Source: a virus. From it: DNA of 57,092 bases. The DNA lies in the IMG/VR virus record IMGVR_UViG_3300043446_004177, positions 1-57,092 of that record; one strand, 5' to 3'. The position numbers were made by a program, and so were the translations under genes. The notes below the pieces were generated by a model. That model made no database searches and was not told the origin of the DNA. It worked only from the letters and a program-made list of their open reading frames with translations. Positions 1 to 57,092 of this stretch are shown here, in pieces (within the stretch, counting starts at the first letter, position 1; each line of letters starts with the position of its first letter).

Positions 1-127
1 TTTGCAACGCCACCATGGGCATATTCTTCCCAGACATCTTGATAAGTACCGTCAGGCATAAGCTTCTTCACCAAGCGGCGGCGTGATCCTCCGCCTTGCG
101 GTTGCTGCGGTTGGAAGTCAGGCATAG
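1..127. repeat. Left copy of 127-bp terminal direct repeat (circular contig overlap)
   Basis: Bases 1-127 are identical to 56966-57092. A length of 127 is a common maximum k-mer of short-read assemblers, so this is most simply an assembly overlap of a circular or circularly permuted genome rather than a biological terminal repeat. The reading frame continues across the join, in agreement with this. Confidence 0.95.
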
Positions 128-3100
128 GTGAAGCTGGCTTAAATGTTGAGCTATCCAGCGATGCAAGCTGTATTGGCTTGTTGACAGGCGTTAGCGAAAT
201 CGGTCGCGCAGGCTGCGTGAATGCAACCTGTTGTGGCGCAGGCGCGATCTGGTTTTGCGCAAATGTTGACTCATAGTGTTGAGGCATCGGCGCAGGCGCA
301 ATTTGATTTTGTGCAAATGTTGGCTCGTAATGTTGCGGCATTGGCGCAGGAGCGATTTGGTTCTGCGCGATTGTCGGTTCAAAACGTTGCGGTATCGGCG
401 CGGCCGCTATTTGATTTCCTGCAACGGATGATTCATAATGTTGCGGAGAAGGCATGATTGATGAAATAATATCAGCCTGTGATTTCATTATTGGCGATTT
501 GTTTGATATGTCTGCCATTTGATATGCGCTTGGACGTTTTTCATTGGCAATTTGCATTGATGATGGACCGCCCGCAGGAAAGCCCGCGTTTGCCCATGCC
601 GTCATCTGTTCTGCTTTTCGTTGTTTATCTTCTGCGTTTTCTTCTTTCATTGCATCAATGATAGCAAAATTTTTAGCATTTAAATTAAGCTGAGATTGCA
701 ATAAATTAGGCGGCATATCGCGATAACTATGTTGTGTTTGTTGACTGTTATCATGACCATTTTGATCAGATGTAGTATTTGGATTTTCTTGTTGATTAGA
801 AGATCCGTTTGATGCCCCCGATGAACCAGCTGATCCTGTTGCACCGCGTTCTGGTTTGCTGCCAGAAAATTCTGTGTCACCGCCGAAGCCAAAATGATCG
901 CGCTCGACTTCTCCGCCGTCTGCTTTTGGCAGTCGCGGAAGATCCGCAACACCATGAGCGTCATTGATAGCTTTGACTTCATCATCGCCAAGGATGCGAT
1001 TGACTTTCATCTCGCCGCCAATGAGCCAGTTGCCCGTCATGTTTGGATTTGTTTTATAACGATAGTGGCCACCATGAGGAACCTGATCTGTAATATGTGC
1101 GGTTTTTAAATCAGGCTTACCTGCCTTTGTCATGCGAGCTCGGCTGTTTGCGATCGATTGCCAATCGACATCATCAGGCATTTCAATTTCAGCCCACACA
1201 TGATTGTCAGGACGGTAGTCGGGTGCCTTCAATGATTTTTTAGATTTGCCGCCGATATGCGTTGCAATAGGTAAATCACCAGCATGCCAGCCGGGGCGAT
1301 ACGCAAGGTCACCAAGCTTTGATTTTACTTTGGTCGGATTTTTTCCCGGAGGGCCAGCTTCTGCGCTAACCCATTGGCCCATTGGAACAGGTTTATTTGC
1401 ATCAACAAACAAAGGGAATATTTGGTTCGGCTTGCGCGGATCTGTGCGGAAAAGCTTGTAAGCCTTTACTGTATTTGTTGGTTCGACATCACCGCCTTCT
1501 TCAAAATGTTGCGGCTCATGCCATGTATTTTCATTTTCATTGCCTTCCCACACAGGCGCGTGACGACCTGTTGCAAAATGAAAATACTCGTAATCCTTAT
1601 CATCATCAGGATAACGAAATTTATCATTTGCTGTCTTGGTCATTGTTTTACCAGAAGCCAAACGCAATTTTGCGCCTTCTGGCAAAGCTAAAGCTTGGAT
1701 TGGAGTGTGGAGCTTTTCACCAAACTTTACATCTGGGTGCACTAAAGAAAATGAATGATATTCATTTTTAATTTTTTCTGGATCATGAAAAGATTTATCT
1801 TCATGTTCTTGATATAAGTTAATTCCACCAGAGCCTTGTGCAGGTTGTATTCTTTTCAAACCAGAATGCGTGTCCATAAAATAATGCGTTTGTTGATTAA
1901 ACGCATCACCTTTTGTCGCAGCTATGATATGACCACGGGCCTTTGCCGTACCGCCATCTCCATAAGCTTCAACCTCGCCGCCTTCTGCATAGCGGCGCTT
2001 GATGTTTACGCGGTCGTGATCGAAGACGACGTAGTTGTGTGTTAGTTTATCCGTGCTCCAGCTGGCGAGTGGCCCGCGGCTACCTGCATCAAGATACTTA
2101 ATGCCGTGGATGCCAAGAGACATCAATTCATTGCTAGCGATGTTTTTGCCGCCCAAACCTTGGGTATTTTTATAATATACGTCTTGTCCAGTATCCTCTG
2201 GCTTATACGGCCTGTTTTTTTGCAATGGCGTATGATTAGCCAAAGCATTTTTTACATACTTGCTCTGCTCACTCAACGGCTTATCCCAATCCAAGAAGTG
2301 ATCAGGATGAGCGTCGATGTGGACCTCGTACATGTGGCCTTTATTTTTAATTTCAGGTTTTACAGAACGAATAAGCTGTTCTGCTTTTTCAATATATTCA
2401 GGTTTGTAATGAGAATAATTAGACCGCATGTCATCGACAGCTTCATCTAAACCCATATCATAATTTTGCATTTTTGTTAGTGCATGATGAATAGGATAAA
2501 GAACTTCTGACCAATTTATGTTCTCTGGATAAGAAAGATCTTCGTATGGATAAATTTCGTTTGCAGCTTGAGACGCAAGAGGAAATTCTTTCCCTTTTAC
2601 TGATATTGTTGGATTTTGAAGAGCATCACGATATTCTTTTGCTACAGGCTCCGCTTCAGCAAAATACAACCCATGGCCAAACGCTTGTGCGCCTTCGCCC
2701 GTTCCAATCTTGCTTGTGTCAAACTGCTCAAACTCATGCGGTGAGCCGTGGTAGGCGGTGATGCCGTCTACCTCTCCGCCGTCGCCTTTTGTAATATCGG
2801 GGTCATAACCCCATTCGTTCAATGAATCTCCATTGGTAAAAACATCTTTTGCTTTTACCCTCTTGCTAGCAATTTTATATTTTCCATTAAGAACACTTTC
2901 ACCATGCTGTTTAGCATATGCTTTAGTTGGCGTTACCCAATCGCCCTTTCTAATCATTTGACTAATTGGATTTTCATGTTTCATAGCATTTTTATAAACT
3001 TCGAGCGGTATAGCTCTATGAATCCAAACAGGAGCTTCTGGATTTCCTTTTATGCGAACAGTATGTCGATATGACTCCTGATCAATCGGATTATCTTTAT

Positions 3101-3230
3101 TGCCATAATAATGAAGGCCATTAGGGCCATACAAATCGGATGGGTATACGCCTGTTGTATCATGCAACGGCGCACCGACATCATCGTCCCGCGATGGCGC
3201 TTGATGCTGGCCGCGATAATCTTCTTCCAT
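1..3230 (-). CDS. Large polyvalent virion protein with ADP-ribosyltransferase-like domains (main part; C-terminus continues at 56845-56965)
   Basis: Translating the minus strand from ATG at 3230 gives an uninterrupted frame to base 1. It continues in frame across the contig join to a TAA at 56845, giving 1116 residues in all. Residues about 57-143 form an ART-like module: R72 in IHRAIP, GDWVT at 96-100 and E139 in EWGYDP. Residues about 158-410 resemble the ART-PolyVal family of phage polyvalent proteins: YHGSP at 160, GEGAQAFGHGLYFAE at 178-192, and NYVVFD near 398. Residues about 425-575 are an unrecognised domain. Residues about 587-770 form a third conserved domain (YKLFR..., PGWHAGDLPIATHIGG, NMTGNWLIGGEMKVNR) that I have seen only as unknown. 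Short DGG/EGG-(E/D)V motifs lie between the domains. A Q/N-rich tail with 18-residue repeats follows. The start overlaps the stop of the 565-aa gene (TGATG). Its place between portal and capsid genes suggests a virion protein delivered into the host. ADP-ribosylation is an inference from motifs. Confidence 0.85.
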   Translation of the reverse strand, partial: MEEDYRGQHQAPSRDDDVGAPLHDTTGVYPSDLYGPNGLHYYGNKDNPIDQESYRHTVRIKGNPEAPVWIHRAIPLEVYKNAMKHENPISQMIRKGDWVTPTKAYAKQHGESVLNGKYKIASKRVKAKDVFTNGDSLNEWGYDPDITKGDGGEVDGITAYHGSPHEFEQFDTSKIGTGEGAQAFGHGLYFAEAEPVAKEYRDALQNPTISVKGKEFPLASQAANEIYPYEDLSYPENINWSEVLYPIHHALTKMQNYDMGLDEAVDDMRSNYSHYKPEYIEKAEQLIRSVKPEIKNKGHMYEVHIDAHPDHFLDWDKPLSEQSKYVKNALANHTPLQKNRPYKPEDTGQDVYYKNTQGLGGKNIASNELMSLGIHGIKYLDAGSRGPLASWSTDKLTHNYVVFDHDRVNIKRRYAEGGEVEAYGDGGTAKARGHIIAATKGDAFNQQTHYFMDTHSGLKRIQPAQGSGGINLYQEHEDKSFHDPEKIKNEYHSFSLVHPDVKFGEKLHTPIQALALPEGAKLRLASGKTMTKTANDKFRYPDDDKDYEYFHFATGRHAPVWEGNENENTWHEPQHFEEGGDVEPTNTVKAYKLFRTDPRKPNQIFPLFVDANKPVPMGQWVSAEAGPPGKNPTKVKSKLGDLAYRPGWHAGDLPIATHIGGKSKKSLKAPDYRPDNHVWAEIEMPDDVDWQSIANSRARMTKAGKPDLKTAHITDQVPHGGHYRYKTNPNMTGNWLIGGEMKVNRILGDDEVKAINDAHGVADLPRLPKADGGEVERDHFGFGGDTEFSGSKPERGATGSAGSSGASNGSSNQQENPNTTSDQNGHDNSQQTQHSYRDMPPNLLQSQLNLNAKNFAIIDAMKEENAEDKQRKAEQMTAWANAGFPAGGPSSMQIANEKRPSAYQMADISNKSPIMKSQADIISSIMPSPQHYESSVAGNQIAAAPIPQRFEPTIAQNQIAPAPMPQHYEPTFAQNQIAPAPMPQHYESTFAQNQIAPAPQQVAFTQPARPISLTPVNKPIQLASLDSSTFKPASPMPDFQPQQPQGGGSRRRLVKKLMPDGTYQDVWEEYAHGGVA
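234..443 (-). repeat. 54-bp in-frame tandem repeat, about 3.9 copies
   Basis: Within the 1116-aa gene, residues 930-999 consist of 18-residue units of the form QHYEPTFAQNQIAPAPMP, with three full copies and one of 16 residues. The two central copies are nearly identical and the outer ones have diverged, which suggests recent expansion by unequal recombination. The units are rich in Gln, Asn, Pro and Ala and probably form an extended linker before the C-terminal segment. Confidence 0.9.
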
Positions 3231-4927
3231 CACAGCCTCCCGCTGAACACAGGCTCGCCTGAATCCGCCGTCACGATGTGAACGCCGGGGATGCCGTGAG
3301 CGGGGTGAACAGATCCGCCGCGCTTTAAGCCTTCTTGCGGCGGAAGTGCTTGGGAAGATCCTCTTCTTCTTCTGGGTGCAACTCCGCTGGCGGTTTCCCC
3401 AAATGAGCTAGGTGAAGATAGGTTTCCCTGTTCTCCTTCAAGCCCGCTCGGCGCATTAGGCCCAACAAGCCCTTCGACAGGTCCATCTTCTCTGTGCCAA
3501 TCGGGGTGCGGGATTTGTCCTTGCGGTGTTGATGCTGCGTCATGGGTTAATGCCCTCGCCTGTTCCTGTGAGATTTTTCCTGCGCGGAAATCGCGCCAAA
3601 TATTATCAATAGCATCTACGTTTTTTTTGTTCGCTTTGAACGAAGGCGAAAACAACCCACGAATGGCTTCCCATGTAATGGATTGCATTTGCCTTGGCAG
3701 AATATCTCTTTCGTTTGCTGCTCGCCGATAGGCTTCAGCCACCAAAGGATACGTTCCACGAACGCCAGTTATATCAGACCCAGCCGCATTTGGAATACCC
3801 GCACCGGTGCTTGTGTCAAGATTATGCCCAACTTCAAGCGATTTGCCGCTCAAAGGACGATATAGTGCCGCCGCAACCGCATGAGTATCCGCCGTCACAT
3901 CGCCAAGCTTTGAATGAGGCACAAGAATGTTATTGTAAAAATTGCGAACCTTGTGTTTTGAACCCATCAATTGGGACATTGCTTCTGGGTTGTCTTTATT
4001 TTCAATCGCGGCAATTGCCTTGCCAATCTCATTGAACGAGCCCCAAGCGACCTTCTTATGACCGCCCGCATCCGTCATCGCATATTCTGTTTCGTCACCT
4101 TCTGGTGAGATGATGTGATATTTTTTGTCGCCATAAGTTTCGTCATGCAAGCGAAGCCACAATGCTTTTGCTGCAAGTCGTTCGTTGTTATCCAATCCCA
4201 TGTTGTCGATGTCGGTCAACGATTTGCCATGCATCATCTCAGCAACTTTAAGATATTTGGCTAGCGATGGATCCGCGCCTTTTTTAACTTGCGATTCTGT
4301 TGGCGTGATCATTTGCTTAAACTTTGTCATCATGGCATCGTCCATCGGTGTGTCGTGATGGTTTGCCATAATATGCAACACGCGGTTTCCTAGTGATACA
4401 TTTTGAAACCAATCTTTTTGAGGAGAGAGCGCCGCATAAACACCTGCAACAGAATGGTCAGGAAGATTGTATTTTGCCGATTGACGATCGGTAATTGCTC
4501 GAGCTCCATCATACCACTTGCTACTCCGCTCGCGAATGTCGGGCCTGATCTGGTCATGAAGAGCAAGCAAGTTGTCTTTCATGTGTTCAATAAAATGTTC
4601 TGCAAGCTCGTCATCGCTCATACGCAATGCGGCTGATTGCGGGACATTGATGTAATTACGAACAAGCGCCATGTTTTTGCCAAACACATTGTTTGGAGAA
4701 GCTTTCAATGCCGCCATATCAGAAATTTTTGGCTCACCTGCAGGCGTTGGGTCTGCCTTACTGCCGAGGCGCGTAGGAATCCACGCAGGATGATCTTCGC
4801 TTCCGATCGTCTTCATGGGCTCGGGCGGATTGTTGTGGCCCATCATGCTTTTTGAGCCGCCTTTTGCAAGTTTCACTCGCATGACAGGCTTAACAGAGCG
4901 AGCTATGCCCAAAACATCTTTGCTCAT
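3230..4927 (-). CDS. Conserved phage protein of 565 aa, 'ALSP...W..N / DTH' type
   Basis: The central part (about residues 95-420) has features shared with conserved phage proteins: WYDGARAITD, VAGVYAALSPQKDWFQN, a KVRNFYNNI segment and DVTADTHAVAAAL. These resemble a widespread phage domain of unknown function (DUF7178-like, by memory) that may be distantly related to helix-hairpin-helix DNA glycosylases; that relation is only a guess. The C-terminus is low in complexity and ends with KRGGSVHPAHG, a GG motif shared with neighbouring virion proteins. The start overlaps the 58-aa gene by four bases (ATGA), and the stop overlaps the next start. It belongs to the packaging/virion unit and may be an ejected or head-associated protein. 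Confidence 0.75.
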   Translation of the reverse strand: MSKDVLGIARSVKPVMRVKLAKGGSKSMMGHNNPPEPMKTIGSEDHPAWIPTRLGSKADPTPAGEPKISDMAALKASPNNVFGKNMALVRNYINVPQSAALRMSDDELAEHFIEHMKDNLLALHDQIRPDIRERSSKWYDGARAITDRQSAKYNLPDHSVAGVYAALSPQKDWFQNVSLGNRVLHIMANHHDTPMDDAMMTKFKQMITPTESQVKKGADPSLAKYLKVAEMMHGKSLTDIDNMGLDNNERLAAKALWLRLHDETYGDKKYHIISPEGDETEYAMTDAGGHKKVAWGSFNEIGKAIAAIENKDNPEAMSQLMGSKHKVRNFYNNILVPHSKLGDVTADTHAVAAALYRPLSGKSLEVGHNLDTSTGAGIPNAAGSDITGVRGTYPLVAEAYRRAANERDILPRQMQSITWEAIRGLFSPSFKANKKNVDAIDNIWRDFRAGKISQEQARALTHDAASTPQGQIPHPDWHREDGPVEGLVGPNAPSGLEGEQGNLSSPSSFGETASGVAPRRRRGSSQALPPQEGLKRGGSVHPAHGIPGVHIVTADSGEPVFSGRL

Positions 4928-17817: not shown

Positions 17818-19579
17818 CGGCTGCCTCATTGAATGCGAAGACCTTGTACCAATCGCCGTCCTTGCGATAGGTGATGGTCTCTGGCTGTTTTCCCTTCAGG
17901 CTCGCATACATAAATGCCATGCGTTGACCGTCGGGCCATGTAGGTTCTTTTGGTACCCAAAACGAAAACGTTCTGAACTCAGTCGCAACATCAACCCGCA
18001 ACATCGGCCGTCCAGCTTTTGACATGGTATGCCGCGTTGACCATGCCATGACGCGGTCTGTCTGCCTGATGGTTGGGTCTTTCTTTCTGTTTGCGAACTC
18101 AATCCGCAGCTTCTCATTCGGATCGACAATCTCGTTTTTGCATTCTGTGCAATGACGTGCAGCGATATCGTTCTCGGCCTTGCAGGCAGGGCATTCTTTG
18201 AACGTCCAACGATAGCGGCACCGATCAAGATCCCCGCCACCGATCGCGACAAAGCCTTGGCACCGCCGCCCATGATGGGCAGGCATGTCACCGAACTCGG
18301 TCTCGATGCGACGGCCATCAAGATCAACGTAATAGCCGTTATCGTCGATCTCGTATTTGTCTTTATTAAAGCGCGCCACGAAATCGTTTTCTGTATCGCA
18401 TTCAGGACAGCGACAGCGCAGTGTCTTGGCCTCTTCCTTCATGCCCATGGGGCGAATGGTCGGCGAGAAGATATCGCCGTCTGGGCAGTGCCGCTCAATG
18501 TTCTGGGCGTAGTCCAAAACGAGGCAGTCAGTCTTACCTTCGGCGATACGCAGGCCGCGGCCGATAATCTGCTGCAACAGCCCAGCGGATTCCGTCGCAC
18601 GAAGCATCGCGATCACGTCTACATGAGGCGCGTCGAAGCCTGTGGTGAGAACGGCCACGTTCACGATGTATTTGATTTTCTCAGCCTTGAAGTCCGCAAT
18701 GATGGCGGCGCGCTCTTTGCGCGGTGTCTCTCCTGTAACCATGGCAGAAAGCTCTGCGGGAAGGCTCTCAAGGCATTCCTTGGCATGCTGCACAGTTGCA
18801 GCAAAAATCATGACACCTCGCCTGTCACGGCTCTTGGCAACGATGTCAGCGATGATCTTGGCCGTCTTACGTCCCTGCCCGATATAGGCGCGATCAACAT
18901 CGTCGGCATTAAACTGGCCGCGGCTGTTGAGCTCCATGCCGAGCGTGTCATAGCTCTCGGCATCAATCGAACCGACCACGGGCGGCGTGAGGAAACCCAT
19001 GTCGATCAGCTCGCGCGCGGTGATGCGATCAACAAGACCCGTGAAGTAAGGGTCTTTGGTCTGGTTCTCAGCCACGGGTTTGCCATCAGGCCATTGCGCA
19101 AAGATGTACCCGCCGAACATGCGATAAGGTGTTGCCGTCATCCCGACCACGCGCACGTTGGGGTTCTCGGTGCGAATTGATTCGACGATGCTCTTGATGG
19201 TCGGCGTAATGCCATGCGCCTCGTCGATCACGATCATGCCGAACTCTTTGCCAAACCGCTTGATCTTATTCTTGATCGTAAGCGGAGTGCCAAACACAAC
19301 AGGATGCTGCAGGCTCTTTTGACCGACACTTGCCGAAAAGATTGAGAACGGTTCGCCTGTGAGCTTGTACTTCTCGCTATTCTGGATGACGAGCTCGGCC
19401 GAAGGCGCGATGCATAGCACGCGCTTGCCCCCGCTGATCTCGCGTACAGTCTTTGCGAGGGCCGCAATGATATGCGACTTGCCTGCACCCGTAGCGGCTT
19501 CAATCAAGCACGGCGCGCGCAGCCTCTTGATCCAGTTTACAATCTTATCATGCGACTTTTGTTGGTATGGTCTCAGCAT
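17801..19579 (-). CDS. SF2 DEAD/DEAH-box helicase with C-terminal zinc ribbons, 592 aa
   Basis: ATP-driven duplex DNA translocase. Q-like N-terminus LRPYQQKSHDKI, Walker A EAATGAGKS (27-35), IDEAH (118-122), TATPYR (148-153), and the second RecA domain with VLTTGFDAPHVD and QIIGRGLR (motif VI). Two Cys4-type knuckles follow, CRCPECDTEN and CPACKAEN...CTEC. UvsW/SSL2-like helicases of this design assist phage recombination and replication restart. Flanked by two nucleases. Confidence 0.93.
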   Translation of the reverse strand: MLRPYQQKSHDKIVNWIKRLRAPCLIEAATGAGKSHIIAALAKTVREISGGKRVLCIAPSAELVIQNSEKYKLTGEPFSIFSASVGQKSLQHPVVFGTPLTIKNKIKRFGKEFGMIVIDEAHGITPTIKSIVESIRTENPNVRVVGMTATPYRMFGGYIFAQWPDGKPVAENQTKDPYFTGLVDRITARELIDMGFLTPPVVGSIDAESYDTLGMELNSRGQFNADDVDRAYIGQGRKTAKIIADIVAKSRDRRGVMIFAATVQHAKECLESLPAELSAMVTGETPRKERAAIIADFKAEKIKYIVNVAVLTTGFDAPHVDVIAMLRATESAGLLQQIIGRGLRIAEGKTDCLVLDYAQNIERHCPDGDIFSPTIRPMGMKEEAKTLRCRCPECDTENDFVARFNKDKYEIDDNGYYVDLDGRRIETEFGDMPAHHGRRCQGFVAIGGGDLDRCRYRWTFKECPACKAENDIAARHCTECKNEIVDPNEKLRIEFANRKKDPTIRQTDRVMAWSTRHTMSKAGRPMLRVDVATEFRTFSFWVPKEPTWPDGQRMAFMYASLKGKQPETITYRKDGDWYKVFAFNEAADALAA

Positions 19580-20024
19580 CTAAAATCTTCCTAAATTTTT
19601 GCATCGGTATTAAAACGCAAGGCTCGATGTCCTGAGCGTCTCCTCGATCTCGTCTTCCAGCCATCTTTATTTTTGGAAACCTTTCAAATGCGCTGGCATG
19701 CGAAACAGTAAAAACAAATATGCCATCCGTTAATTGGATTGCGATAGCAACACCGATCGGGAAATCTGCATGCCAACGGCGAAGAGCTGACATCTTGTGG
19801 CATGATAGCATGTAACCGCCGAGCTTATCTAACTGCTCGTAAGAATAGTTGCGGCACTTGATCTCCATGACCCCTTTGATGTCGTCAAACAAAGTCAAAA
19901 CATAATCAATCTCACATGCAGGCTTCAATTTAATGGCCGTGTAACCCCAAAGAGTTGCCAAAGATTTAGCAACGGCGAACTCTTTGCTGCGGTCTTCTTC
20001 TGTTTCGTAAAAAGGCCTGCTCAT
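19548..20024 (-). CDS. PD-(D/E)XK-type nuclease-like protein, 158 aa
   Basis: CEIDYVLTLFDDIKGVMEIK contains the D-(x)n-ExK core (ID, MEIKCR), followed by a helix (EQLDKLGGYMLSCHKM) like that of resolvase/endonuclease families. Overlaps the helicase gene by 32 bases and the glycosyltransferase gene by four (ATGA). Could resolve branched DNA or process modified DNA ends. Family assignment is by motif only. Confidence 0.72.
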   Translation of the reverse strand: MSRPFYETEEDRSKEFAVAKSLATLWGYTAIKLKPACEIDYVLTLFDDIKGVMEIKCRNYSYEQLDKLGGYMLSCHKMSALRRWHADFPIGVAIAIQLTDGIFVFTVSHASAFERFPKIKMAGRRDRGDAQDIEPCVLIPMQKFRKILDAETIPTKVA

Positions 20025-20896
20025 TTTTTGTACTCGATCAGTTTCATGCCGTAGTTGTTCACTTCGCCCGTCAATTTGACGTTGGGCTTTCTAATCAACT
20101 TGTTGCCTTTGAACTTTCTATAATCAACGTGATGATGCCAGCGGCCAAATTTCCAAACGACCTTTGCGATATCAGGGTGCATGTCCTCGAGCATCTTTGA
20201 TTTCGGAAGCGTGCCCTCTTTCTCATAGAACTCAGCCGTGTTGCCGCCCTTCAACGTCTGCGTTGTGGCCTTCTCTTGCAAGAATGCGTTGAACTGTATT
20301 GTACACCAGCCGTCCTTCAAGACGCGGAGAGACAGGTCAGTGTCCTCATTGTATCGGCCGCGCCATTGGTACGGGATAAAGTTGTTGATCAGCAGGCAAG
20401 AATAAATGCGCGTGTTCAACACGAAAGGCGGCAACGGCTCTTTTGCTTTGGCAAAGAAATCATAATTAAAACCTGCAACCGCCACGTTCTCGTAACGCTC
20501 GACAAAGTCTTCGGCCGCCGCAAAGATGCCGCCGAACATAACCTTGCACATCAGGTTACGGTTTAAGCGATTGAACGACGCGATGTTGTCGTCCATCACC
20601 CAGTGCCATGTATGCCCCATGGCGATCGCGTTACTCCATGCAAAATTGCGCGCTGCGCCGGGGCCCTTTCCTTTTGTGTCGCCAAGATCATCGAACGTAT
20701 CGTATTCATCAAGATAGCGCCGCGGCAAGATCAGGATCTTTTTTGGATCAATCACGCTCGCGTACTGATCATATTCTTGCTCTTCAACAATGATCTTGTA
20801 AGGCACGCCCATACTTTCGAGCGACTTGCTCGTTAAGCGGCTTTCCCACCGACCTTTTGAAACAATGTAAATCGGGTGTTTAGGATTCTCTGACAT
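20021..20896 (-). CDS. TET-associated glycosyltransferase-like protein (TAGT), 291 aa
   Basis: GT-A-type glycosyltransferase expected to move a sugar from a nucleotide donor. HPIYIVSKGRWESRLTSKSL opens the nucleotide-binding domain. GKGPGAARNFAW (77-88) and the DxD-type motif WVMDDN (99-104) are intact, and GRYNEDTDLS (near 180) gives the later acidic site. The pattern matches the TAGT family, usually linked to oxidised 5-methylpyrimidines in phage DNA. The neighbours are a small TAGT-linked protein and a DNA methyltransferase. No TET/JBP dioxygenase was found here, so the acceptor base is unknown. Confidence 0.85.
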   Translation of the reverse strand: MSENPKHPIYIVSKGRWESRLTSKSLESMGVPYKIIVEEQEYDQYASVIDPKKILILPRRYLDEYDTFDDLGDTKGKGPGAARNFAWSNAIAMGHTWHWVMDDNIASFNRLNRNLMCKVMFGGIFAAAEDFVERYENVAVAGFNYDFFAKAKEPLPPFVLNTRIYSCLLINNFIPYQWRGRYNEDTDLSLRVLKDGWCTIQFNAFLQEKATTQTLKGGNTAEFYEKEGTLPKSKMLEDMHPDIAKVVWKFGRWHHHVDYRKFKGNKLIRKPNVKLTGEVNNYGMKLIEYKK

Positions 20897-21125
20897 ATCT
20901 AAATTTAGCTGCTCTGCGGAACGGCGCGAATGGATACCAAATCGTTTTTGTTTTCTTGTCTACCTTTTGCTCAACAAGCTCTGCAAACTTCGCCATGTCT
21001 TCTGCGTTTCTAAATCTAACATTGACCGCATGGAACGGTGTGAGATCTTCTTGCAGAAACTCTGGCATATCTTTCCATTCATCAAACACATCTACTTGTT
21101 CCATTTCTTCAAACAGTTTGCTCAT
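20880..21125 (-). CDS. Small TAGT/methylase-associated protein, 81 aa
   Basis: WKDMPEFLQEDLTPFHAVNV, then an ED..KFAELV segment and the conserved KKTKTIWYPF. This pattern (DMPEF...F..I.V.F...ED...FA.L.....TKSIW.P) recurs in phages next to DNA-modification or ParB-like genes. Start at 21125, sharing a base with the methyltransferase stop. Role unknown; the tight overlap with the GT gene suggests a partner protein. Confidence 0.8.
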   Translation of the reverse strand: MSKLFEEMEQVDVFDEWKDMPEFLQEDLTPFHAVNVRFRNAEDMAKFAELVEQKVDKKTKTIWYPFAPFRRAAKFRYVRES

Positions 21126-21676
21126 TATGATCTCCCATAAAACCTCGGCGCGCTCTTCATACGATAGACCTTTGGGTCTTCTTTTGGTTGGTGGAAAAGA
21201 TACCAGCATGCATTGTCTTTGCCAGCGCCCGCGCTGTCTTCAATCCACTTGACGCGGCCGACAGAAATAATGCGAAGGCAGTAATCAAGATAAGGCGTAG
21301 CCTGTCTTGTGTGCATCCAGTCTGCATCGAAGAGCAGCCATGTAGGAGCAAGGCGTGAGCAGCGTTCGATGATCTGATGAAGAACGGTGCGTTCCCATGG
21401 CGGGTTGGTGATAATGAAATCGGCACCGCAAAGCTCCGCTTCTGTAATGAATGAAGCATCGTTGCGAAGGATCCAATCAGCGCGCGGCTCGACATCGTAT
21501 GCCATCGTGCATGCGTGACCATGATGTTCAAGATGCTTTACGAGAGCGCCGTCTCCAGCGCATGGCTCGCAAAATTTGATGTTGTCAGGAAGAAACGAAA
21601 CAAGCGGTCGCACTGCTGCATGCGGCGTTGGGTAAAACGCAAGCTTGTGGGATTCAAAATCACTTCTCTTGCCCAT
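21125..21676 (-). CDS. DNA N6-adenine/N4-cytosine-type methyltransferase, 183 aa
   Basis: SAM-dependent methyltransferase. FYPTP near the start, motif I EPCAGDGAL (37-45), the acidic YDVEPRADWI, and catalytic motif IV ITNPPW (89-94). NPPW marks exocyclic amino methylation, of adenine or cytosine. Short, with no clear target-recognition domain. ATG 21676 is used, because upstream residues would overlap the YqaJ gene. Host-like methylation or substrate preparation for the glycosyltransferase are both possible. Confidence 0.86.
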   Translation of the reverse strand: MGKRSDFESHKLAFYPTPHAAVRPLVSFLPDNIKFCEPCAGDGALVKHLEHHGHACTMAYDVEPRADWILRNDASFITEAELCGADFIITNPPWERTVLHQIIERCSRLAPTWLLFDADWMHTRQATPYLDYCLRIISVGRVKWIEDSAGAGKDNACWYLFHQPKEDPKVYRMKSAPRFYGRS

Positions 21677-22250
21677 CGGTCCATTTCTCGCGTTCTTCAA
21701 GATAACGATTATAAAAGTTTTTAAGCGGCACGATGATCGTATTGATGTATTTGTCATCGCGATCGACGCGCTCGAGATAGGTGTCCTTCGGTGTCCACTG
21801 CCAGAAGTCGCACCAATCGCGGTTGGTTACAAAAAGCTGCACCTGTACTTGAGCGTAGTAGTGCTGTTGTTGTTTGAGCGCCTTGAAACGCACAGGCGCG
21901 AACTCATGACGCAAACCGTAAGGGCATTTGACTTCGATCAGACCGACCTCGCCAATATAGCCGTCAGGTGATGCACCGAGCCAGTCTTCATGCGTAACGA
22001 ATGTTGCAGGCGTGACATTTCGACTTGTTATCATTTCATATTCGATGATCGCGCCAGCTTCATGGAGCGTGCCCCATTCTGTGGCGACATTTCCTTTGAA
22101 CTCGTTTGGTAAGCCGTGATAGTCGCGGATCATCTTCCGCATGACATCATCAGGCTTTTGAAACGGCGACAGCCCAAGAATCGCGCCGACAGCAGATCCT
22201 GTCACGCGGCCTTTACGAGCTTCAAACCATTCTTCGCTGCGCTGTTCCAT
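21660..22250 (-). CDS. YqaJ-like viral recombinase/exonuclease, 196 aa
   Basis: Lambda-exonuclease-family 5'-3' nuclease that makes single-stranded tails for recombination. QRSEEWFEARKGRVTGSAVG, E58 in ATEWG and E64 in TLHEAG, then D96 (SPDGYIG), IEVKCP (E106, K108), and the YYAQVQ helix. All catalytic residues are present. TGATG overlap sets the start. Works with the DUF669 ssDNA-binding-type protein and Sak4-like ATPase close upstream. Confidence 0.93.
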   Translation of the reverse strand: MEQRSEEWFEARKGRVTGSAVGAILGLSPFQKPDDVMRKMIRDYHGLPNEFKGNVATEWGTLHEAGAIIEYEMITSRNVTPATFVTHEDWLGASPDGYIGEVGLIEVKCPYGLRHEFAPVRFKALKQQQHYYAQVQVQLFVTNRDWCDFWQWTPKDTYLERVDRDDKYINTIIVPLKNFYNRYLEEREKWTDGQEK

Positions 22251-37568: not shown

Positions 37569-38279
37569 TTACCTCGTTGGAGTTGCGACAATAGCAGGTG
37601 AATAAGGTGCCCAAGCAGAAGATTGAAATTTCTTTCTTGATTCTTCTGTGCGAGCGCCGTTCAAAAGGGCCTGATATTGACCTTCATATGTTTGAGCCAT
37701 AGCGGGGTCGTCATTCACGCGACCAAAATTTCTTTGATAAGCAGAAATATAAATCATTGATGCCATGATGAAGAGATCAGGAAGATAAGTGCTAATAAAT
37801 GTTGTTGTGTTGGTTGCCGAAAGGGGCGTTGATCGAATTGTTCCTGTCAAACGTACTTGATAAGCAACGCTTGGTGGCGGACCAATAATAATATTTTGAC
37901 TGGTGCGACCCGCAGTTGTTGAATCTCCGCCATAAACAGCAAAAACTACAGGCACACCAGAAGGCATTCCAGTCGGAAAAACATTTTGGATATATTCTTT
38001 TGCCACGGGGAGCAAAGTTGTTGAAACACCAGAATTGATGATTTCAACGGTCTGAAGTGTGACAAAAGACGAAGTCGGGATCGTCAATGTATTATTATTG
38101 ATCGTTAATGAATATGAAGTATTGCTTACTTGCGTTGATAAAAAGTCCAAATCACGCTGAATACGCAATTCGGCGTAATCAATCATAGAGGGAAGGATAA
38201 TTTGGAAATTAGCGTCCGTTGACGGGACAACCGCCATTGTGGCGATTTGCTGGACGTAGGACGAATAAGTAAGAGACAT
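37569..38279 (-). CDS. Neck adaptor protein (SU10-adaptor-like), 236 aa
   Basis: YVQQIATMAVVPSTDANFQI, PSMIDYAELRIQRDLDFLST, and a later PDLFIMASMIYISAYQRNFG. These match podovirus adaptor proteins joining portal and tail. It stands beside the gp10-like gene, in the neck/tail part. Confidence 0.8.
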   Translation of the reverse strand: MSLTYSSYVQQIATMAVVPSTDANFQIILPSMIDYAELRIQRDLDFLSTQVSNTSYSLTINNNTLTIPTSSFVTLQTVEIINSGVSTTLLPVAKEYIQNVFPTGMPSGVPVVFAVYGGDSTTAGRTSQNIIIGPPPSVAYQVRLTGTIRSTPLSATNTTTFISTYLPDLFIMASMIYISAYQRNFGRVNDDPAMAQTYEGQYQALLNGARTEESRKKFQSSAWAPYSPAIVATPTR

Positions 38280-46684: not shown

Positions 46685-47410
46685 TCAAACCCCTGTTTGC
46701 GGTATTTGGGTATATCCATAAGGCAACCCAACCAAGGCCGTAACCATCAATGTCGTGCTTTGCAGCAATCCCCCAGCAGGTATAGCATTTGTTACCTCAT
46801 AGGTGAAGGCTGTCGCTGTGGTTACTGTAATACTGTAAAAACCGTCTGCGGCATTATTTGTAAGCCCCTCAACGGCAATTTGGTCATTTGTTGAAAGCCC
46901 ATGTGCCGCAGGGCATGTCACGGTAATAACCGTTGTACCATTTGCGGTGACTGAAAGCGGGTTTAAATTAACGCGATAAGCTGTTGTGCCATAAAGAGGC
47001 ATAACAGCGTTTTGATCCAGCCCGACAGGAGGCCCGATTGGCTGGGTTGTCATGGGTTCGCCTGATTCGGTCGTTATGACGGTTGTGGAAGGGATTGGGA
47101 TCCCCGTCACTGGGTCATAAACCGTTGCTGCGGATGTTGTCATATAATCTGTTTCGGCGGCTGCGTAATCCTGAACGCGCGGGTTCTGGATAGGCACGGG
47201 ATCAGCAGGGAGCACAATCGCGCGCAACTGAGCTTGCGGCGTATCAAGGCAAGGATTGCAAACAAGAATGCGCTTGTTGATCAGGCCTGCGCCAGCATAG
47301 TCAAATTGCCATTGCAGGCGCTCATGGTTGTAAAGAAACCCGCACCGATCGCATATGCCAAATGCGCGGGGATTTCTTGATGATACTGACGCGCGGCCAT
47401 GAGGTCTCAA
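46685..47410 (-). CDS. Zinc-ribbon structural protein, 241 aa
   Basis: CDRCGFLYNHERLQWQFDYA and LVCNPCLDTPQAQLR form a Cys4 ribbon (residues about 20-55). The rest is beta-rich, with a fibronectin/Ig-like segment (LSVTANGTTVITVTCPAAHG). Common in podophages just after the gp4-like gene. The only in-frame start next to a good SD (AAGGA) is TTG at 47410, overlapping the previous stop as TTGA. Confidence 0.8.
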   Translation of the reverse strand: MRPHGRASVSSRNPRAFGICDRCGFLYNHERLQWQFDYAGAGLINKRILVCNPCLDTPQAQLRAIVLPADPVPIQNPRVQDYAAAETDYMTTSAATVYDPVTGIPIPSTTVITTESGEPMTTQPIGPPVGLDQNAVMPLYGTTAYRVNLNPLSVTANGTTVITVTCPAAHGLSTNDQIAVEGLTNNAADGFYSITVTTATAFTYEVTNAIPAGGLLQSTTLMVTALVGLPYGYTQIPQTGV

Positions 47411-48123
47411 CGGAAGTATCCTTGGATCTGCGGCGAGATATATTGCTGCGCCGTTTCAACGTTTTGTTCTGCAGCTATAGCATAAGCCTCGTCAGCGAGT
47501 GGCTTCAATAGCATAGCTTTCTGCGGGTTCCAGATCAAAGCCAAACGTTGCGCCAAACCAAATGCTGCGGCTTCGAGCCAGAGATAGGGGATCTCGACGG
47601 TCTGCCCATTTGTGAACGCGCTGTCTTGGATTTGGCGCACACGGTAATATTTTAGCGTCTGCGCCGAAGTGCCGTCTGGAACGGGCCATAACGTAACAGA
47701 CGGACCTGTAGAGCCAGTTGATCGAGCCGAGCTGATCAAACGATCAAACCAAAACACAGTTGGGAAGCCCTGCTGATCCTTGTTTGGATATGACGCATAT
47801 TCTGTGCGCGACACAGGCATGATGATGCGATCAATCGGCTGCGATCCTGTGGTTGTTTCGCAATAGGCATCAAGCATGACAACAGTGTCTGCAGGCACCG
47901 AGTAAGTTGCCGTGCCTTGAACCAATGTAACCGTTTGCAAATCAACGGCCCAAAGATTAACGCCGCGGTTTGACCAGTTTGAGAGCATCATGTTCATCGC
48001 CATACGGGCGGATTCAAAATGCTCTTGAGCTAGTGCGGTGTTGCGAATTTCTGCAAGATTGAATGCATAAAGCGTCAATTCGCCGAGCGATGGATTGAAA
48101 TTATATGTTGCGCTCGTTGCCAT
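47407..48123 (-). CDS. Tail accessory factor/head-completion protein (P22 gp4-like), 238 aa
   Basis: LGELTLYAFNLAEIRNTALA, then EHFESARMAMNMMLSNWSNR, GVNLWAVDLQTVTLVQGTAT and PVSRTEYASYPNKDQQGFPT are the signature of gp4-like neck proteins that bind the portal. C-terminal helix with LKPLADEAY. ATG 48123 with AGGTGA SD is used instead of TTG 48126. Confidence 0.88.
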   Translation of the reverse strand: MATSATYNFNPSLGELTLYAFNLAEIRNTALAQEHFESARMAMNMMLSNWSNRGVNLWAVDLQTVTLVQGTATYSVPADTVVMLDAYCETTTGSQPIDRIIMPVSRTEYASYPNKDQQGFPTVFWFDRLISSARSTGSTGPSVTLWPVPDGTSAQTLKYYRVRQIQDSAFTNGQTVEIPYLWLEAAAFGLAQRLALIWNPQKAMLLKPLADEAYAIAAEQNVETAQQYISPQIQGYFR

Positions 48124-48127
48124 CAAA

Positions 48128-53819: not shown

Positions 53820-54212
53820 TTACCAAATCATGTCTGGTTCTTTGATCCGCGCTTTAATCGACAGATCATCAAGAATGCGGCAAGATTTTCCATTTACAGA
53901 AAGGGCCCAGCCATCAGACGGACGAAAGACGACCCAATCGCCAACTTTGATTTGTTGCCCATTGAACCATTTTCCTGTCTCGTCAACAAAAGCCGATGGC
54001 CCTGTTTTAAGAACAAGGCCAACTTTGCCTTGATAATTGTCTTCATCAATTGTTTTATCGGTTAAGAGAATGCCGCTCGCTGTTTTTTGCGGACGGACAT
54101 AAATACCGACAAGAACTTGCATATTGAAAAGTTCAATATCTTTAAGATTGCCAACTTTTGATTGGATTTCTTTAACTGGATCAATGGCATGAGCCATTTT
54201 CATTGGCGGCAT
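53820..54212 (-). CDS. GroES-like co-chaperonin, 130 aa
   Basis: NMQVLVGIYVRPQKTASGIL, then LTDKTIDEDNYQGKVGLVLK and KVGDWVVFRPSDGWALSVNG match the Cpn10 fold: VLV..V.P...T.GGI (mobile loop), QGKV..VG.G and V..GD.V.F. The GIL tripeptide in the loop would contact GroEL. It lies with the scaffold and capsid genes, so it probably helps fold the coat protein with host GroEL, as T4 gp31 does. Extra N-terminal 30 residues are unusual. Confidence 0.85.
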   Translation of the reverse strand: MPPMKMAHAIDPVKEIQSKVGNLKDIELFNMQVLVGIYVRPQKTASGILLTDKTIDEDNYQGKVGLVLKTGPSAFVDETGKWFNGQQIKVGDWVVFRPSDGWALSVNGKSCRILDDLSIKARIKEPDMIW

Positions 54213-56844: not shown

Positions 56845-57092
56845 TTAGAACGGGCGTCCCCGTTTTGCCACCATAATTGCTGAAGGGTCCAATGCGGGTG
56901 GCGGCGCACTGATTTTGGCGAGCGCATGCTCGACAATCGCGGGATTATGATAGGGAGCACGATATTTTGCAACGCCACCATGGGCATATTCTTCCCAGAC
57001 ATCTTGATAAGTACCGTCAGGCATAAGCTTCTTCACCAAGCGGCGGCGTGATCCTCCGCCTTGCGGTTGCTGCGGTTGGAAGTCAGGCATAG
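56845..57092 (-). CDS. C-terminal end of the 1116-aa polyvalent protein (continues at position 1)
   Basis: The last 81 residues from MPDFQPQQPQGGGSRRRLVK to KRGRPF lie here; the Met is codon 1036 of the gene that starts at 3230, not a true start. HGGV is the final GG motif. The stop TAA is at 56845-56847. Bases 56966-57092 duplicate 1-127, so only 56845-56965 is unique. Confidence 0.88.
   Translation of the reverse strand, partial: MPDFQPQQPQGGGSRRRLVKKLMPDGTYQDVWEEYAHGGVAKYRAPYHNPAIVEHALAKISAPPPALDPSAIMVAKRGRPF
56966..57092. repeat. Right copy of 127-bp terminal direct repeat
   Basis: Identical to bases 1-127. Represents closure of the circular contig; remove one copy to get the true length of about 56,965 bp. 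Confidence 0.95.

Follow-up and report, generated by a model that had tools for sequence, protein, structure and literature searches.

A TAGT-type glycosyltransferase linked to an 81-residue domain in a phage genome without detectable TET/JBP or hydroxymethylase genes

Introduction

The glycosyltransferase of phages T2 and T6, named PF20691/TAGT in PMC13216743 and PMC13390438, glucosylates hydroxymethylcytosine (HMC) that is already glucosylated (PMC13216743), and the di-glucosylation of T6-like phages has been assigned to TAGT (PMC13390438). A count made in 2026 places a solitary TAGT, without an alpha- or beta-glucosyltransferase (alpha-GT, beta-GT), in 288 of 753 phage genomes (PMC13216743). 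TAGTs that operate without TET (T2/T6) and solitary TAGTs are therefore already in print, the latter with no lead to their acceptor. The substrate of the T2/T6 enzyme and the number of solitary genes also make too narrow the statement, found in an earlier note on the DNA analysed here, that TAGTs usually glycosylate TET-made hydroxymethylcytosine (PMC13216743).

We analysed a viral DNA of 57,092 nucleotides (IMG/VR record IMGVR_UViG_3300043446_004177, positions 1 to 57,092), the whole of which is referred to as the window. It encodes a TAGT preceded by an 81-residue domain, P81. Like the window TAGT, the T2/T6 beta-glucosyl-HMC glucosyltransferase, which forms gentiobiose on hydroxymethylcytosine, is matched by the PHROG 842 profile; the two are very distant in sequence and T2/T6 have no P81. 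The T6 enzyme acts after the alpha-GT, and its gene lies beside a gene that we take to encode a dCMP hydroxymethylase; the window has neither. In the TET/JBP–TAGT cassette of Nonlabens phage P12024L (gp26-gp28), the TAGT adjoins a methyltransferase in a phage operon, as it does in the window. However, P12024L has a TET and no P81, and its TAGT is 24% identical to that of the window.

Closer relatives, 52-61% identical, are the TAGTs of phage Aeh1 (Aeh1p093), phage 65, PTm1, POP12 and Vibrio phages, which belong to the same clade as the window enzyme. In most of those examined P81 forms part of the TAGT polypeptide, whereas the window keeps separate overlapping genes. According to a Frontiers table from 2021, a glucosyltransferase of Aeh1 'presumably modifies DNA, unknown base' (PMC8056088). 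Phages also encode fusions of ParB_N with an N6/N4 DNA methylase, in which a related ParB domain lies just before the terminase, as in the ParB-P81 proteins described below; they differ in that the methylase domain stands where ParB-P81 loci have P81 plus the TAGT gene. Outside phages, the TAGT domain is shared by GREB1. Its described activity is that of a protein O-GlcNAc transferase (PMC10446492, citing Shin 2021).

Relative to the open-access literature, we add here P81 itself, its near-obligate linkage with TAGT, an exchange on ParB proteins and the absence of a shared helper gene.

Results

The gene cluster of the window

The window is an apparently complete 57-kb phage genome with an identical 127-bp direct repeat at both ends, so that the absence of a gene can fairly be described as absence from the genome. 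On the minus strand, the order of transcription is methyltransferase, P81, TAGT and PDDEXK_14 nuclease, and every gene overlaps the next one (Table 1). The P81 gene shares 17 nt with the TAGT start and an ATGA with the methyltransferase stop, and an ATGA overlap also joins the TAGT stop to the nuclease gene. The open reading frames and their Pfam and PHROG matches bear out the earlier description of an overlapping cluster of an intact TAGT, an 81-residue partner and an amino-methyltransferase.

Table 1. Features of the P81-TAGT cluster and the ends of the window
Feature	Position	Strand	Evidence or remark
Direct terminal repeat, 127 bp, first copy	1..127	.	ends identical
Direct terminal repeat, 127 bp, second copy	56966-57092	.	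ends identical
PDDEXK_14 putative nuclease, neighbour	19548..20024	-	PF24579 E 5.2e-26
TAGT-type GT-A glycosyltransferase, 291 aa	20021..20896	-	PF20691 E 2e-41
P81, 81-aa partner domain, WxxMPEF motif	20880..21125	-	precedes TAGT or is fused to it in 86 of 88 loci
NPPW amino-methyltransferase	21125..21676 (ORF open to 21757)	-	PHROG 799 E 3.7e-30

Elsewhere in the window, a Cpn10/GroES-like protein (53820-54212; PF00166, E 1.1e-7) is encoded amid phage structural genes. There are two distinct SU10-type adaptor proteins (37569-38279 and 47407-48126; PF24175), and a protein of 565 aa contains three DUF7178 stretches (3230-4927).

A start at 21676 shortens the product of the full methyltransferase frame (21125-21757) from 210 to 183 aa; this shorter form, chosen in the earlier note, fits the relatives, since most matches begin at residue 20-28. 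The protein is matched by PHROG 799, annotated 'DNA methyltransferase', and has relatives in phages of Rhizobium, Roseobacter and Caulobacter and in similar ones. None of the genes of the P81-TAGT relatives clusters with it, and its profile, run over the set of loci searched, gave three matches (WIN, L001, L106), all of which are the window itself. With its profile absent from the relatives, no shared cluster and relatives of its own elsewhere, the methyltransferase was rejected as a partner, and the idea that it is a component of the system did not hold up among the loci searched. It appears to be a chance operon neighbour of P81-TAGT. Because it does not belong to the conserved module, a methylase-derived base, as suggested earlier for the acceptor, is unlikely.

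The TAGT protein has a predicted GT-A fold

The window TAGT scores 142.7 bits against PF20691 (curated cut-off 27.5) and matches PHROG 842 with an E-value of 3.7e-47. Among the matches listed, its closest relatives in other viral contigs are 71-78% identical, which argues that the gene is not a chance reading frame. Residues 102-104 read DDN and residues 183-187 read NEDTD; in an alignment of 39 sequences, Asp102, Asp103, Asn104, Asn183, Glu184 and Asp185 are invariant.

A fused relative (L019, 67% identical) was modelled with a confident GT-A domain, pLDDT exceeding 90 for most of residues 91-350. Its fold neighbours, BcsA (VIA-align Z 14.5) and GalNAc-T2 (Z 14.3) among them, are processive and protein-acting GT-A enzymes, including cellulose and heparosan synthases on the one hand and GalNAc-Ts, POMGNT1 and COLGALT1 on the other. 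As judged from this model, the neighbours leave the choice of acceptor group undecided. A search of the PDB with the window sequence returned chance matches only. The window TAGT is thus a member of PF20691 in which the catalytic-type residues are kept, and it is predicted to have a GT-A fold and to be an active enzyme. In our quick tree of TAGTs, which has long branches, T6/T2 are missing because the profiles of the P81-TAGT clade failed to retrieve their TAGT; the T6 sequence is too distant.

P81 accompanies TAGT

The 81-residue partner, listed simply as such in the earlier note, proves to be the central element. P81 bears a nearly invariant WxxMPEF motif and has no Pfam match above cut-off and no NCBIfam family. 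The window protein matched no PHROG, a single one of 26 members gave a weak PHROG match (E 0.0076), and the PDB returned no relative, the single match being at chance level (E 0.29). The domain is poorly modelled in L019 (pLDDT 35-75 over most of its length) and partly better in a second model; the model of L066, with a mean pLDDT of 59 overall, was excluded from the fold search. The two proteins differ in charge, with a median pI of 5.2 for P81 (acidic) versus 9.2 for TAGT (basic).

The linkage was followed through partly redundant sets of loci. One comprises 88 loci, made up of the window, seven named phages and the best 80 of at least 581 viral-contig relatives, near-duplicates included. 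P81 lies upstream of TAGT or is fused to it in 86 of them, and the other two (L040, L045) start at the TAGT gene. The window, with P81 directly upstream of TAGT, belongs to what we name the P81-TAGT clade. Searches with ParB-P81 proteins yielded 58 loci with a first query and five more with a second; P81 is present in 39 of these 63, and TAGT in 38 of the 39, the one miss being cut off just after P81. Finally, 84,980 species genomes contained 51 TAGT loci, in Proteobacteria, Bacteroidetes, Verrucomicrobia, Acidobacteria and others. P81 is found in 47; the other four are partial or contig-end TAGT matches.

P81 and TAGT form a single protein in Aeh1, PTm1, POP12, Kuja and two Vibrio phages, and are separate overlapping genes in the window and most viral-contig relatives. 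In most loci the overlap measures 4 to 17 nt, with an MNP start conserved in the TAGT frame. The start codon of the split TAGT genes, be it ATG, GTG or TTG, is preserved at a fixed place, from which we conclude that the two proteins are translated separately. A programmed +1 frameshift was considered, as the junction AATCCTAR resembles a shifty stop. This constancy of place despite a varying codon speaks against it, as do other loci with an ATGA overlap, hence a different frame, and the same MNP start; separate initiation is simpler. Co-occurrence and fusion together suggest that P81 is the true, near-obligate partner of TAGT.

In the T4-like phages Aeh1 (L101 1279-1492, 41.0 bits) and POP12 (L102 1246-1444, 38.9 bits), a second small P81-like protein is encoded directly after the fused P81-TAGT gene.

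No shared acceptor-making enzyme is found

A Pfam scan of 49 window proteins, covering all but the shortest reading frames, detected no 2OG dioxygenase, no hydroxymethylpyrimidine enzyme and no family of the T-even alpha-GT or beta-GT. Searches of the whole window record with PF12851 (TET/JBP) and PF00303 (thymidylate-synthase family) were negative. The examination of the window genes for a dioxygenase, proposed in the earlier note, therefore returned none among the 49 proteins, and the claim that the genome encodes neither such an enzyme nor a hydroxymethyl-pyrimidine enzyme stands. By the same searches, the window has neither the thymidylate-synthase-family hydroxymethylase and the alpha-GT or beta-GT of the T-even HMC/gentiobiose pathway nor the PF12851 protein of the TET/JBP–TAGT system.

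The picture extends to the relatives. PF12851 matched none of 57 P81-TAGT virus records, window included (0/31 and 0/26), and recovered the TET phage P12024L as a positive control (E 2.8e-29). A script covering 131 loci with P81 and 24 with TET, in which the same records are repeated, found no locus with both. One exception, the Winogradskyella contig L206, carries both P81-TAGT and TET. There (533-4161) the P81-TAGT fusion faces a set of ParB-like, TET and TAGT genes on the other strand, in which TET adjoins a different TAGT of its own. PF00303 matched six of 31 P81-TAGT records, five of them large phages and one a partial match, all at family level only; five of the seven named phages carry such a gene. 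Aeh1 and 65 are absent from the gene-42 phages listed in Table 4 of Petrov 2010 (PMC2993671).

We compared 12 near-full phage genomes gene by gene (phmmer). TAGT, with or without P81, is the sole family present in 12/12, followed by a helicase in 5/12; the records, taken from IMG/VR or GenBank, may be incomplete, three of them (G007, G009, G012) are related, and phmmer may miss remote families. It is therefore unlikely, as far as phmmer can detect, that the clade shares an enzyme for making the acceptor. As no such enzyme travels with the module, the acceptor group should already exist in every host or phage, and would then not be TET- or hydroxymethylase-made hydroxymethylcytosine. The proposal of a different acceptor is thus supported by a TAGT that occurs without TET/JBP or a hydroxymethyl-pyrimidine enzyme, and is probably correct. 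A large clade that nearly always has its dedicated partner P81, together with the lack of any other family common to the near-full genomes, reduces the question of the acceptor to two genes.

ParB coupling and the terminase neighbourhood

Many loci encode P81 as the C-terminal portion of a ParB_N protein. PF02195 matched 15 of the 24 members of a second alignment, and a ParB profile built here matched 37 of 84 upstream proteins. The P81 of the window, an 81-aa WxxMPEF domain with no ParB match in Pfam, lies outside this ParB-P81 subtype. The two arrangements occupy different surroundings: of 27 ParB-P81-TAGT loci, 24 have the large terminase gene (TerL) at most 5 kb downstream, as against 4 of 25 P81-only loci (Fisher p 1.5e-7, rows thinned for near-copies and 8 short and 2 cut rows excluded). 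Terminase clusters were named by reading the sequences, except for the cluster containing the window's own TerL. In the window and in the Vibrio phages henriette and 1.124.O, P81-only modules are surrounded by genes for replication or recombination.

Among the ParB loci without P81, ParB and a DPPY methylase motif share one frame in 8/24, and a more distant TAGT follows in 9/24. Pfam assigned N6_N4_Mtase to all three ParB-DPPY proteins tested and reported ParB_N in two. This exchange of a methylase for P81-TAGT on related ParB proteins is our main argument for DNA as the target. We found no open-access publication on TAGT together with ParB in phages.

ParB_N is joined to another C-terminal domain, of about 120 aa (KIDSPVYEP...HTVFNF), in L126, L129 and L137 (e.g. 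L129 5899-7573). A distant TAGT follows at the same position before the terminase, so that the arrangement seems to parallel ParB-P81-TAGT.

Discussion

We propose, at about an even chance, that P81 and TAGT constitute a two-subunit, self-contained GT-A glycosyltransferase, with P81 in targeting or assembly and phage DNA as the most likely acceptor. Alongside the observed families, linkage, fusion, TET absence and genomic slot, we infer the following mechanism. The two subunits, which many phages encode as a single polypeptide, would divide the work: TAGT would provide catalysis with a host nucleotide-sugar as donor, and the acidic P81, sometimes carried on a ParB_N protein, would be a near-obligate targeting or assembly subunit, as its co-occurrence and fusion suggest. 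The sugar would be placed most likely on phage DNA during replication or packaging. DNA is the likeliest acceptor because the TAGT family includes a proven DNA-base glucosyltransferase, because ParB-P81-TAGT lies directly before the terminase, a position at which related ParB domains of other loci are joined to a DNA methylase, and because TAGT is basic and P81 acidic.

Several points weigh against the proposal. No source of a hydroxylated base is visible in the window, and we know of no TAGT-family reaction in which an unhydroxylated base is glycosylated. The P81 of the window is without ParB, models of the P81 domain are weak, the TAGT of T6 is too distant for the clade profile to retrieve, and L206 holds both P81-TAGT and TET. 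A more specific form of the proposal, in which P81-TAGT is a self-sufficient DNA hypermodifier that acts on bases without a pre-made hydroxyl, for instance at an exocyclic amine, and is targeted by P81 or ParB-P81, is tentative and unlikely. If true, it would mean a DNA modification chemistry beyond the TET and hydroxymethylase routes in phages of many bacterial phyla. DNA as the target would in itself imply a phage glycosylation route independent of prior base hydroxylation by known enzymes.

By analogy with the O-GlcNAc role of GREB1, a protein acceptor must be taken seriously, although we consider it unlikely. P81-TAGT would then glycosylate a protein of the host or the phage (e.g. RNA polymerase, a nucleoid or a defence protein), which ParB/P81 would select or tether near DNA, and phages would have their own branch of protein glycosyltransferases resembling GREB1. 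The travelling module is without a base-hydroxylating enzyme, GREB1, which has the TAGT domain, is credited with O-GlcNAc transfer (PMC10446492), and GalNAc-Ts, POMGNT1 and COLGALT1 are among the fold neighbours, where polysaccharide synthases rank equally. The slot beside the terminase and the swap with ParB-methylases point away from a protein, and the phage TAGT of known chemistry works on DNA (PMC13216743). That enzyme acts downstream of a hydroxylation step (PMC13216743), and a conventional pathway would have the P81-TAGT cap a 5-hydroxymethyl or 5-hydroxy pyrimidine made by an unrecognised phage or host enzyme. The thymidylate-synthase-family genes of the named phages and the TET of L206 agree with such a pathway, which is nevertheless improbable in view of the TET/JBP count of zero, the rarity of the thymidylate-synthase family and its absence from the window, the missing Aeh1 and 65 entries among gene-42 phages (PMC2993671) and the lack of another family common to the 12 near-full genomes.

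Least probable is that TAGT modifies a small molecule or a host surface glycan, as in seroconversion or superinfection exclusion. GT-A folds often build polysaccharides, and cellulose and heparosan synthases are among the best structural neighbours of the L019 model; the setting amid DNA replication and packaging genes and the coupling to ParB argue against such a role. Whether DNA, as we favour, or protein is the target, the substrate named in 'beta-glucosyl-HMC-alpha-glucosyltransferase' annotations of P81-TAGT genes is probably wrong.

Two nearby TAGT genes occur in L011, L012, L028, L049, L053, L066, L087 and L195; in L066, a ParB-P81-TAGT fusion is followed by a second TAGT. This pairing suggests successive sugar additions or two acceptors.
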